Source of the DNA: Clostridia bacterium
GTDB taxonomy: Bacteria; Bacillota; Clostridia; Oscillospirales; Acutalibacteraceae
Direction of reading: 5' to 3'
Assembly (NCBI GenBank): GCA_017550105.1
Contig: JAFYLQ010000012.1
Location: 1 to 35,305 of the forward strand
Length of the DNA: 35,305 nucleotides
Under the pieces are notes generated by a model, which made no database searches, was not told the origin of the DNA, and saw only the letters and a program-made list of their open reading frames with translations. A program made the translations under genes and the position numbers. Positions 1,733-6,592 of this stretch are shown here, one piece after another; position 1 is the stretch's first letter, and every line of letters begins with the position of its first letter.

Positions 1733-1760
1733 TTGCTTTTACGTGTTATTGTGCTATAAT
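1733..1760 (+). promoter_or_regulatory. Sigma-A promoter of the M14/DUF2817 peptidase gene
   Basis: TTGCTT (1733-1738) and TATAAT (1755-1760) are separated by 16 bp. The -10 has a TGn extension (TGC), giving an extended -10 promoter about 30 bp upstream of the start codon. Confidence 0.6.
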
Positions 1761-1791
1761 ATAAATATAAAATTTGTATAGGAGAAAAGCT

Positions 1792-3048
1792 ATGAAAAAG
1801 AAAACAAAAAAAGTGCTGATTTCATTGCTCAGCACAGTAGTTGCGGTTGTTATTTTGCTTACGGTGGCGGGACCCCATTTCGTGCTTATGGGTGCACGTC
1901 AGCCCGAGGTTGAAGCTGAGTATGCCTATAGCGAATATTTTTATAACGACTACGACACAATACGTGCTCACCTTAAGGAGCGTGTGAGTGAGCTTGAGGG
2001 CAAGGGCGTTAAGGTCGAGGTTAGCGAATATGCCGTTGACGAAAAGGACGACCTTTATATTGATAATATTTATTTACCCAGTAACGACAAAAAGGATAAT
2101 CTTATTGTGCTTACTACGGGCGTTCACGGTATAGAGGGCTACATCGGTTCGGTTATGCTCGACGTGTTTTTTGAGGAAATTTATCCTACCTTGAATACGG
2201 ATACAACGGGTGTGCTTATTGTGGCAAACGTGAATCCCTACGGTATGAAGTATATGCGTCGTTATAACGAAAACAACGTTGACCTTAACCGCAACTTTAT
2301 TATTGATTGGGAAAATTTCAACCTTTCATCAAATAAGGATTACCCCGAGGTTAAAGAGTTTTTACAGCCCGAGGGTGAAATCGGCAATGCATTGTGGCAC
2401 GAGGTAGGCTTTTACGGAAATCTTGCCAAAGAGGCTCTGACAAAGGGCGCCGACAAGGTTTCGGATGCGCTTCTTACAGGTCAGTATGAATATCCTCAGG
2501 GTGTTTATTACGGCGGTAACGGTGACGAAATCTCAACCACGTATCTTAAGAGTGTGTTTAACGACTGTCTTGACGGTGAATACGCTAATATTATTCATAT
2601 CGACATTCACTCAGGCTACGGACCCCGATATAATATGGTAATTTTCAACTCAGTTTTCGACACGATGACCGAGGCAGAGACCAAAGCGGCTTTTGGCTAT
2701 GATTACGTAATTGCTCACGATTCCGAGTCCTTCTACGCTACAACGGGCGACACTACCGACTATTTCTACCGTCTTGCCGAAAGCAAAAAGACCGATAAGG
2801 AATTATACTCAACCTGCTTTGAATTCGGTACAATCGGCGACAGCTTTATGGAGTCAATTCTTTCGCTTAAATATACCGTTGACGAAAACAGAAACCATTG
2901 GTATCCTACGGATAACAAGGTTACAGAAGAGGTTGTAAACGAAAATTATAAGGAGCTTTTCTACCCCACCGAAACACAGTGGCGTGAAAAAACAGTAGCT
3001 GATTTTAAAATCGCTACCGAAGGTGTGCTCAAAGCTAAATTAAAGTAA
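1792..3048 (+). CDS. Membrane-anchored M14-family metallopeptidase (DUF2817-like)
   Basis: A 418-residue protein with a lysine-rich N terminus and one hydrophobic segment (about residues 9-28), so it is probably secreted or anchored outside the cell. Zinc-carboxypeptidase hallmarks follow in order: HGIE near residue 112 (HxxE zinc ligands), DLNRNF near 163 (substrate-binding N-R), DIHSG near 270 (third zinc ligand) and FEFGT near 343 (catalytic glutamate). The GVHGIEG form of the first motif is typical of DUF2817, a branch of M14. It likely trims peptides or amide-linked substrates at the cell surface. ATG 1792 is preferred over an upstream in-frame TTG at 1774 because AGGAG (1780-1784) lies 7 bp before it. 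Monocistronic, with its own promoter. Confidence 0.8.
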   Translation: MKKKTKKVLISLLSTVVAVVILLTVAGPHFVLMGARQPEVEAEYAYSEYFYNDYDTIRAHLKERVSELEGKGVKVEVSEYAVDEKDDLYIDNIYLPSNDKKDNLIVLTTGVHGIEGYIGSVMLDVFFEEIYPTLNTDTTGVLIVANVNPYGMKYMRRYNENNVDLNRNFIIDWENFNLSSNKDYPEVKEFLQPEGEIGNALWHEVGFYGNLAKEALTKGADKVSDALLTGQYEYPQGVYYGGNGDEISTTYLKSVFNDCLDGEYANIIHIDIHSGYGPRYNMVIFNSVFDTMTEAETKAAFGYDYVIAHDSESFYATTGDTTDYFYRLAESKKTDKELYSTCFEFGTIGDSFMESILSLKYTVDENRNHWYPTDNKVTEEVVNENYKELFYPTETQWREKTVADFKIATEGVLKAKLK

Positions 3049-4361: not shown

Positions 4362-4396
4362 CTTCCCGACTCGTGTGAGTCGGGAAGCTCTTTTTT
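4362..4396. terminator. Bidirectional terminator between aroK and the permease
   Basis: CTTCCCGACTC (4362-4372) pairs with GAGTCGGGAAG (4377-4387) around a GTGT loop, with A-run upstream and T-run 4391-4396 downstream. It serves both convergent genes; the permease stop codon overlaps the T-run. Confidence 0.9.
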
Positions 4397-5816
4397 AACC
4401 CCAGATAAACCAGAGCATTAAATAACCTGTTGTAACTGCTGCAAGGGTGAAGGGTACGCCGTATTTCATAAAGGTTGTACTCTTAACCTCGTGACCCTCC
4501 TTACGAAGGATACCGATACCTGCGATGTTTGCACTTGCACCGATGGGTGTAAGGTTACCGCCAAGGGTTGCACCGCAAAGAAGACCGTAGTAAAGAAGCT
4601 TCGGGTCCATACCGGGGAAGCCCTCTGCAATAACGGGTACAATTGCAAGCATTGTTGCGGTGTAGGGAATGTTATCAATAAATGCTGAAAGAATAACGGA
4701 AGCCCATACGATAATGGTGAATACAAGGAAGGGTGAGCCGCCGCCCAAATTCTTGATTACGTTACCGATTACGTCAACAACACCTGCAGATTCGATACCG
4801 CCGATAACTATGAAAAGGAAGGTAAGAAGTGCGATTGTGTAGTAGTCGATTTCCTTGAAGGCGTTTTTAACAACCGCCTTGTTCTTTTTGATAACAAGCT
4901 CTCTGAAAGCACCGATAAGGAAGATTGCAATACAAAGAATACCGTTTGTGATGTCAGGCTTATAAATCTTTAAGCCGTCAGCGGTCTGTTCAAAGAATCT
5001 GAAGTCACCCTCGCCCTGATAATAGGGAATGAACGATACGCCGATAAGGGCAACAACCGTGCCAACAAGAAGGATTGTGGGGAAATAATCCTCAACCTTT
5101 GTTTCGCCCTTGAATGAGATTTTGCCCTTTTCTTTTCTGAACATAAAGAGGATGATGAGGGCGGCAACAATTGCACCTGCTTCAACAACCCAGAACATAC
5201 CGGGCTTTGATGAGCCGTCAAGGGCTTTGTCAACAAAGAATGACGAGAAGTCAAGGTTTGCGGCTTTACCCAAAAGGATTGATGTAGTGTCACCAACAAG
5301 TGTGGCGGCACCCTGAAGGTTTGATGAAACCGCTATACATATAATAGAGGCTACAGGTGAAATGTTGAGCTTTTTGCAGAAAGCAAGGGCAACGGGGGCT
5401 ATCATAAGCACTGTTGCAACGTTGTCAACGAAAGCGGAAACAATACCTGCAAAAAGTGAAATTACAACCACAACCCACTTAACGTTGGGCATTTTGGATA
5501 TGAGCACGTCAGAAAGCAGCTGGGGCATTTTGGATTCAATAAATAAATAAACCGTACCCATAGTACCCGCAATCATCATAATTACGTTCCAGTCGATGTT
5601 CTTGAGCGCATCAAGAATACCGTAAGTGTAAACTCCGTCACCCACGTTGAAGAACTCGGCGCCGAATAAATCGGGCTTTAACGTGGCTATAACGCCTAAG
5701 CCTACAAAAAGTAATGCGGAAACACCTACGATATAGGGGCGTATTTTTTGAAAAATAAGCATAAGAACGTAGGTTATTGCAAAGATTACCAATGCAACAA
5801 TTGTGATTTGACTCAT
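4395..5816 (-). CDS. Ion/anion permease of the ArsB/NhaD (SLC13-like) superfamily
   Basis: A 473-residue protein with about 11-13 transmembrane helices, present as two homologous halves. Each half has a helix-break motif: FVDNVATVLMIAP with SNLQGAATLVGD in the first, FIDNIPYTATMLAIVP with GATLGGNLTPIGASAN in the second. These repeats are typical of the ion-transporter superfamily that includes NhaD-type Na+/H+ antiporters, ArsB and the P protein. The substrate cannot be fixed from sequence; sodium/proton exchange is a reasonable guess. Start ATG 5816 is chosen over an upstream frame to 5912 because GGAG lies about 7 nt before it and the extra 32 residues fall in a structured leader. It is monocistronic, with a consensus promoter and a terminator inside the leader, so regulation by transcription attenuation is likely. 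Confidence 0.85.
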   Translation of the reverse strand: MSQITIVALVIFAITYVLMLIFQKIRPYIVGVSALLFVGLGVIATLKPDLFGAEFFNVGDGVYTYGILDALKNIDWNVIMMIAGTMGTVYLFIESKMPQLLSDVLISKMPNVKWVVVVISLFAGIVSAFVDNVATVLMIAPVALAFCKKLNISPVASIICIAVSSNLQGAATLVGDTTSILLGKAANLDFSSFFVDKALDGSSKPGMFWVVEAGAIVAALIILFMFRKEKGKISFKGETKVEDYFPTILLVGTVVALIGVSFIPYYQGEGDFRFFEQTADGLKIYKPDITNGILCIAIFLIGAFRELVIKKNKAVVKNAFKEIDYYTIALLTFLFIVIGGIESAGVVDVIGNVIKNLGGGSPFLVFTIIVWASVILSAFIDNIPYTATMLAIVPVIAEGFPGMDPKLLYYGLLCGATLGGNLTPIGASANIAGIGILRKEGHEVKSTTFMKYGVPFTLAAVTTGYLMLWFIWG

Positions 5817-5851
5817 AAAAATCTCCATTCTCGGTGTAAAGTTGTCTGTAC

Positions 5852-5963
5852 AAAAAAACACCCATCTTGAGGATGGGTGGAAAAGGTAAGTATGACAAAC
5901 CTGCAACCTCAATAAATAACCTGCGAAAGCAAGCTATGACAGACTCCACCACTTACGGGTTGC
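5852..5963 (-). promoter_or_regulatory. Structured 5' leader with intrinsic terminator; riboswitch candidate
   Basis: The predicted transcript (start near 5963) opens with GCAACC, complementary to GGUUGC at 5908-5903. GUAAGU (5956-5951) is complementary to ACUUAC (5891-5886); the two pairings cross, so they could form a pseudoknot. Between them AUAGCUUGC/GCAGGUUAU (5937-5929 with 5924-5916) makes a 9-bp hairpin with a UUUC loop. A terminator follows: CACCCATC/GATGGGTG with seven T (5879-5852). GGUGGA (5950-5945) is complementary to UCCACC (5881-5876), which overlaps the first arm of the terminator, so an antiterminator is available. I do not recognise it as a known class. An ion-sensing function is suggested only by the downstream permease. 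Confidence 0.65.
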
Positions 5964-5969
5964 AATTTG

Positions 5970-5998
5970 ATTATATTATCCCGAGGGCTAATTGTCAA
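5970..5998 (-). promoter_or_regulatory. Consensus sigma-A promoter of the permease leader
   Basis: TTGACA (5998-5993) and TATAAT (5975-5970) match consensus exactly with a 17-bp spacer. The predicted start near 5963 falls on the first paired base of the leader RNA. Confidence 0.85.
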
Positions 5999-6109: not shown

Positions 6110-6592
6110 ATGAATTATAAAAACGTTCCGCAATGGATGCAGGATAGCAGGTCGGAAATACAAGGTCAGAATGACGTTGTAGGACTTATTATTGCAGAAT
6201 ACATAGGCACTTTTGTGAAAAGGGGCTTTACCCAGCAGGAAATGGGCTCCCTTATGGCGGGTGCATTTTTACTTCCCTTAGAAGAGGTTGAAAAAAGAAT
6301 TGATGCTCTTATGTCCCTGTGTGATGACAAAGAGCAAGGCAAAAAGCTTTGTGTTTTCTGTGTGCAGAAGGGTGAGCTTTTTTCGGTTGAGGATACCGAC
6401 CCTTGCGAAATCATAGAAATTTTAAAAGAAAAATACGGCACTGAAGCGGTAAAGGAAACCCTGCTTAATTACCCCGAGATATTATACGTATGGAAAAATT
6501 CCAGGTTTAGAAATTCACCCGAAAATGGAAAAAACAGGGAAAAAGCCGAGTTTATTCTTAGTGAATGTGCAAGTGTTTTTCCTGAAATTTAA
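6110..6592 (+). CDS. Conserved-looking cytoplasmic protein of unknown function
   Basis: A 160-residue soluble protein with no signal peptide or membrane segment. The first half looks helical (IIAEYIGTFVKRGFTQQEMGSLM), the middle has a CVFC cysteine pair near residue 83, and the end is charged. I do not recognise a family. AGGTGA about 6 nt before the ATG supports the start. A TTGACT at 6041 could be its -35, but the matching -10 is weak. It stands alone upstream of the rny promoter region with no clear terminator; the next signal is the palindrome at 6636. Codon use resembles the surrounding core genes, so I think it is real. Confidence 0.6.
   Translation: MNYKNVPQWMQDSRSEIQGQNDVVGLIIAEYIGTFVKRGFTQQEMGSLMAGAFLLPLEEVEKRIDALMSLCDDKEQGKKLCVFCVQKGELFSVEDTDPCEIIEILKEKYGTEAVKETLLNYPEILYVWKNSRFRNSPENGKNREKAEFILSECASVFPEI

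Follow-up and report, generated by a model that had tools for sequence, protein, structure and literature searches.

A conserved and apparently undescribed riboswitch-like leader RNA upstream of permease and Na+/K+-handling genes in Clostridia

The window, a 35,305-nucleotide stretch of a Clostridia bacterium assembly (contig JAFYLQ010000012.1), carries on its minus strand a permease gene behind a leader in which a promoter, a stem (P1), a one-sided bulge, a hairpin (P2) and a terminator follow one another. The promoter (TTGACA at 5998-5993, TATAAT at 5975-5970, spacer 17 nt) sets the RNA start at about 5963, at P1, and the permease ATG lies at 5816, 35 nt past the terminator. The features of the locus are as follows.

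5998-5970, minus strand: promoter TTGACA-17-TATAAT, 12 of 12 consensus matches
5903..5963, minus strand: conserved RNA element P1-bulge-P2 (model R1 match 5903-5963)
5958..5963, minus strand: P1 outer 5' strand GCAACC, pairing with 5908-5903 and covarying in alignment A3
5903..5908, minus strand: P1 outer 3' strand GGUUGC, covarying in A3
5953..5955, minus strand: P1 inner 5' strand UAA, pairing with UUA 5915-5913 (columns 10-12 and 58-60 of alignment A5)
5938..5952, minus strand: 15-nt one-sided bulge, the core, GUGGUGGAGUCUGUC, near-invariant in 26 aligned sequences
5916..5937, minus strand: P2 hairpin of 9 bp, with double-sided changes in 5 of 7 P2 pairs in A5
5876..5881, minus strand: UCCACC in the terminator 5' arm region, complement of core GGUGGA 5950-5945 (putative antiterminator)
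5852..5879, minus strand: intrinsic terminator, stem 5879-5859 followed by seven U
5844..5848, minus strand: CAGAC past the terminator, complementary to core GUCUG
4395..5816, minus strand: permease gene P0001, 473 residues (PF03600 E 1.5e-57, PF02040 E 2.3e-10)

By family match, P0001 is a CitMHS/ArsB-like permease; the MamN, DASS, ArsB and NhaD models all score it below their cut-offs, and a comparison with solved structures gave no sequence match. Upstream of the leader lies a divergent frame of 160 residues (6110-6592, plus strand) with no Pfam or NCBIfam match, and a similar-looking frame is also found upstream of the leader at another locus (L003).

A sequence-only reading had described most of this anatomy: the perfect promoter and the RNA start it implies, a GCAACC/GGUUGC helix, an inner 9-bp hairpin (5937-5916, here P2), a terminator ahead of the start codon, and complementarity between GGUGGA and UCCACC. 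All of these are present, and the helix, as outer P1, covaries. A second helix, GUAAGU with ACUUAC, had been proposed to cross the first and form a pseudoknot; a perfect counterpart of this pairing occurs in 2 of 57 copies of the RNA, against 1.64 expected from shuffles, and we dropped it. The 57 copies are distinct by sequence and were found with the core pattern; being mutually related, they yield counts and z-scores that are not independent. In 54 of them a match to a less stringent promoter pattern is found no more than 60 nt upstream.

The 126-nt leader shows a modest folding gain over shuffled sequence (z -2.46, with 4 of 200 shuffles equal or better), and since this gain is modest, comparison with relatives had to decide whether the structure is real. 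In A3, an alignment of 12 permease leaders, double-sided changes are seen in 8 of 20 pairs, and pairing holds in 98.3% of cells; in the broader, hand-picked A5 (26 relatives), the figures are 11 of 14 pairs and 94.2%. The covariation score of A5 is 0.507; shuffling lowers it to 0.198 and sliding the partners to 0.159 or less, and RNAalifold, run on A5 with no structure supplied, predicted the identical 14 pairs. One copy (L103) replaces the P1 letters that flank the bulge, usually AAUAA/UUAUU, by GGCAA/UUGCC and the second P2 pair U-A by C-G, with the bulge unaltered. It is this covariation, not folding energy, that is decisive for the leader structure. From the aligned sequences, the conserved fold is P1, a one-sided bulge and P2, a covarying, aptamer-like fold in a 5' leader, and we regard the architecture described here as highly probable. 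The bulge is near-fixed, not wholly fixed, reading GCGGCGGAGUCAGAC in L052 and GCGAUGGAGUCUGUC in L104. At one locus (L023:2309-2356), the alignment gap comprises exactly the 15 bulge positions, so that P1 and P2 join as one perfect hairpin; this bulge-less leader keeps its terminator and permease gene, and either the core was lost in nature or the gap is an artefact of the assembly.

Conservation upstream of homologous permeases, which the sequence-only reading had put forward as the way to check its structure, is seen in P1 and P2, which are kept and covary there, and in how often the RNA occurs. Searching with the permease yielded 56 loci, 32 at 71% or more best-segment identity and 24 below. 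Leaving out two of the closer loci that lack the gene 5' end (L056, L058) and one with 69 nt upstream (L038), the RNA is present in 27 of the 29 assessable loci, the two exceptions being L042, which has no RNA, and L023, which has the remnant just described. Below 71% identity, 1 of 23 loci (L052) carries the RNA, one further locus without its 5' end (L071) being left out; in other genomes the RNA precedes permeases down to 53% identity (L113). These relatives come from assemblies of Clostridia, Oscillospiraceae and Ruminococcaceae, of which many derive from the guts of herbivores.

The taxonomic range of the RNA is narrow. Model R2, which matches the window at 5902-5964 (52.5 bits, E 2.3e-11, 187 kb searched), matched 31 of 398 genomes in the window's family at E 0.001; among 398 from across the phylum the one match was the window's own genome, and in the family of genome G382, 1 of 4 genomes matched, namely G382 itself. 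With R1, 5 of 22 genomes matched in the genus, 25 of 300 passed E 0.1 in the family and 9 of 391 did so in the class. The strict filters of the large searches can lose weak matches. Three family matches (L096-L098) are weak and lack the full core, and five class matches (L105-L109) also lack it and were taken as chance; none of the eight is among the 57 copies. Of these, L096, at 29.2 bits, may be a decayed copy.

We next consider how the fold relates to the terminator. A terminator-like hairpin follows the RNA in 57 of 57 copies, as judged by a permissive detector that takes the best hairpin with a U-tract. The terminator 5' arm contains exact GRCAGAAUCC in 13 copies, with close variants in many others, and UCCACC in three (L001, L003, L034); in the bulge, their complementary stretches are GGAGUCUGUC and GGUGGA. 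Measured for the arm only, as z against single-base shuffles of the core, complementarity between 5' arm and core has a mean z of -2.05 (50 of 57 below -1, 38 of 57 below -1.64), compared with -0.75 for the 3' arm (23 of 57 below -1). When duplexes were sought along the entire downstream stretch, the signal was weaker (mean z -1.20, 15 of 57 below -1.64), with the best duplex covering the terminator 5' arm in 26 of 57 copies. When transcripts were cut before the terminator 3' arm, folding predicted core-arm pairing in 44 of 57 copies, taking 4 expected pairs as the minimum, as against 3 of 57 for full transcripts; of six cut transcripts examined as folded examples, five have the core paired and P1 open, the exception being L034. 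The tendency of the terminator 5' arm to be complementary to the bulge argues that P1 and the antiterminator compete, and this expression platform is predicted to be mutually exclusive with the aptamer-like fold. The competition between terminator and antiterminator suggested for the window thus appears, from arm complementarity and cut-transcript folding, to be general among the copies.

Two details of the pairing recur. Among 34 arms with GRCAGR, 26 place an A opposite a core G when paired by hand, a conserved mismatch that may either adjust the antiterminator or form part of a ligand site. In the whole-stretch search, the best partner of the core in many permease copies is CAGAC past the terminator, and CAGRC follows the U-tract in 17 of 37 permease copies, including the window's, and in 0 of the 20 others; its pairing with core GUCUG is a possible second layer of control.

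The RNA may act by binding a ligand, of whatever kind; this is a proposal from sequence. Comparison supports a P1-bulge-P2 fold whose bulge doubles as the upstream half of an antiterminator, the other half being the terminator 5' arm. P1 and the antiterminator would exclude each other, and a signal would pick one of them before the terminator is complete. A ligand that stabilised P1-bulge-P2 would turn the gene OFF; one that stabilised the helix between bulge and arm would turn it ON.

Attenuation by a leader peptide, or a structure arisen by chance, would also place these elements before a gene, and a frame open from a GUG in the core does run through window positions 5952-5638. Over the 57 copies, the distance from the core to the end of P2 falls in all three phases (25, 16 and 16 copies) and the first stop in the core frame comes after 7 to at least 100 codons, so the reading frame is not conserved and the leader peptide was rejected; covariation speaks against chance structure. 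We consider either explanation extremely improbable. It is rather unlikely, though much less far-fetched, that the bulge is bound by a protein or by an RNA acting in trans, with no direct ligand. All strong sequence conservation sits in a single stretch beside a hairpin, like a protein site, and the narrow range (31/398 in the family, 1/398 in the phylum) is as for a lineage-specific regulator; against this, antiterminator pairing partly explains the identity of the core. Pairing of UGGUGGAG with tRNA 3' ends was considered as well.

Known RNA classes did not account for the element. Rfam 15 gave no family at gathering score anywhere in the window and six low-scoring, sub-threshold matches touching the leader (E <= 10). 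The best of these, SAM-II (RF01726), reached 23.8 bits against a gathering score of 44 (E 0.011) on the plus strand, which would be the opposite transcript, and was rejected. Five copies searched against Rfam at E <= 5 gave nothing at P1-bulge-P2, and in ten longer regions only 6S RNA reached gathering. The core sequence was not found in the text of the literature searched, and the leader was not described in the portions of that literature available, although large supplementary candidate lists (e.g. PMC8040213) may include it; the available portions of four RNA-discovery papers (PMC11109978, PMC8632094, PMC8040213, PMC6429828) hold other motifs or none. The RNA is apparently an undescribed riboswitch-like attenuator absent from Rfam 15, in agreement with the sequence-only reading, which had recognized no known class in it.

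The genes that follow the RNA bear on its signal. First genes were assigned by tblastn with reference proteins drawn from these same loci, and gene names come from HMM matches, several of them, including PiT and TrkH, below the curated cut-off. On this basis the 57 copies precede a permease (37), PiT (7), a sodium-type pyrophosphatase (5), pyruvate kinase (2), a flippase-like gene (2) and, once each, TrkH, an ABC exporter, a Na+-decarboxylase beta subunit and a GltD-like gene. We read 19 longer regions, three of which end at contig ends; DUF47, TrkH, TrkA-N, DUF368 and the decarboxylase (OAD) beta subunit were identified by HMM on one protein each, and the rest by eye. The gene orders found after the RNA include the following.

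L160 and L171: PiT-DUF47-flippase-TrkH-TrkA-N
L161: PiT-DUF47-TrkH-TrkA-N
L158: flippase-TrkH-TrkA-N
L163: TrkH
L169: PiT-DUF47-flippase
L157: PiT-DUF47-DUF368
L160: two ABC genes with their own RNA copy, just ahead of the PiT copy
L168: GltD-like gene, then Na+-decarboxylase beta (PF03977 E 6.7e-154)

TrkH/TrkA-N genes thus occur in 5 of 19 regions, and Na+-decarboxylase beta directly after the RNA in L103 and as second gene in L168. One genome (G198) has three copies, before PiT, flippase-TrkH-TrkA-N and the pyrophosphatase. The occurrence of copies before Na+/K+-handling genes strengthens the cation-related interpretation first suggested from the window. The PiT, pyruvate kinase, flippase, ABC exporter and GltD-like genes have no obvious link to Na+.

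The closest functional parallel is the Na+-I riboswitch (DUF1646 motif, RF03071), likewise a leader RNA with transcription-terminator control but with another conserved sequence and another fold; the one-bulge architecture seen here is unlike it. The RF03071 model matched neither the window nor genome G000, and R2, run on 16 of 18 Na+-I-type loci, found nothing beyond one 12.7-bit stretch (L175). In the available text, Na+-I is an ON switch for Na+ whose aptamer stem P2 is in competition with the terminator (PMC9337991), and its genes include nhaD and oadG (PMC9646797). In the window's family, we found Na+-I above cut-off in 6 of the 230 genomes searched, and in 10 at E 0.01. Of the seven places above cut-off, four lie before Na+-decarboxylase beta (identified by HMM in L174 and L177, by eye in L175 and L182), two before CPA2 antiporters (by HMM in L173, by eye in L176) and one, L172, before a Ca/Na antiporter identified by HMM. 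Matches below cut-off precede decarboxylase beta in L178 and pyrophosphatase in L183, both identified by HMM, and, as judged by eye, pyrophosphatase in L185 and V-ATPase-like genes in L179 and L184; in L180 and L181 no clear Na+ gene follows. No genome combines the RNA with an above-cut-off Na+-I, but chance alone predicts fewer than one such overlap, and we draw nothing from this.

The OAD beta and Na+-pyrophosphatase families are therefore common to Na+-I and the RNA, which is the strongest argument for Na+ as the signal; for the pyrophosphatase the argument draws on sub-threshold Na+-I matches (35.0 and 31.7 bits against a cut-off of 40.5). With roughly even confidence, we propose that the RNA is a cis-acting, riboswitch-type transcription switch that ties Na+/K+-handling genes to monovalent-cation status, with direct sensing of Na+ the most likely signal. 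A sensor of Na+ that serves Na+ extrusion would be expected to work as an ON switch, through a stabilised bulge-arm helix. Read most simply, the anatomy is that of a ligand-OFF switch, a poor fit to Na+ extrusion that suits K+ better.

The same switch could thus be turned OFF by K+, or by c-di-AMP as its proxy: enough K+ would stabilise P1-bulge-P2 and let the terminator form, shutting K+ uptake and the Na+ pumps that support it. This is an unlikely reading. The aptamer-like fold competes with the antiterminator, the usual layout of an OFF switch; TrkH/TrkA-N genes occur in the five regions listed above; and pyruvate kinase, which needs K+, follows the RNA in 2 genomes. The c-di-AMP riboswitch (RF00379) controls K+ uptake genes and has a much larger fold (134 positions) than the RNA. 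It matched 1 of 66 chosen genomes, nothing in the window and 0 of 33 RNA-bearing genomes, which leaves room for another sensor. The Na+-decarboxylase and Na+-pyrophosphatase genes, both of which follow Na+-I matches in the same family, point instead to Na+. We think it doubtful that the RNA senses K+ directly, folding as P1-bulge-P2 when K+ is normal and freeing the bulge as antiterminator when K+ is low, with K+ uptake and Na+ pumps then switched on, though this would fit both the ligand-OFF anatomy and the Ktr operons. Among the papers retrieved in a search for K+ or phosphate riboswitches, titles and abstracts name no K+-sensing riboswitch.

Other leaders of cation-related genes differ from the RNA. 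Rfam gave no match of the nhaA-I or nhaA-II kind to the leader at E <= 10, and we take models of both to be in Rfam 15. According to the available text, these Li+ classes, with nhaA-I variants proposed as Na+-II, likewise control cation transporter genes (PMC9646797, PMC9337991), and nhaA-I is described as resembling Na+-I (PMC9646797). The nqrA-II and TIGR03647 motifs are also candidate leaders before sodium-linked genes in the parts of the sources at hand (PMC11109978, PMC6429828), but there nqrA-II has four stem-loops and precedes nqrA in Pasteurellaceae, and TIGR03647 precedes a gene for a solute/sodium symporter subunit; neither gene was seen downstream of the RNA copies.

If the proposal is true, a small RNA class (about 61 nt in the window) joins the few linked to alkali ions, and offers a lead on the coordination of Na+ pumps with K+ uptake and phosphate import in gut Clostridia, where both the Na+-I and the c-di-AMP riboswitch are rare.

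Within about 230 nt upstream of the gene, three distant relatives of the permease (L050, L060, L061) carry a terminator and the common sequence GGGAGUAG...AAGACYUUUA, in leaders that we take to resemble yybP-ykoY. These leaders gave no Rfam match at E <= 1, and RF00080 gave only weak matches (E 0.05 or worse, in one genome), not tied to them; for this reason we make no argument for Mn2+. An IS200/IS605-like TnpA frame, recognized by eye, lies between terminator and PiT in L122, and also in L090 and L169. At L006, the copy is preceded on its own strand, at a distance of a few hundred bases, by a tmRNA gene (RF00023, 159.9 bits; 1739-2085, minus strand).
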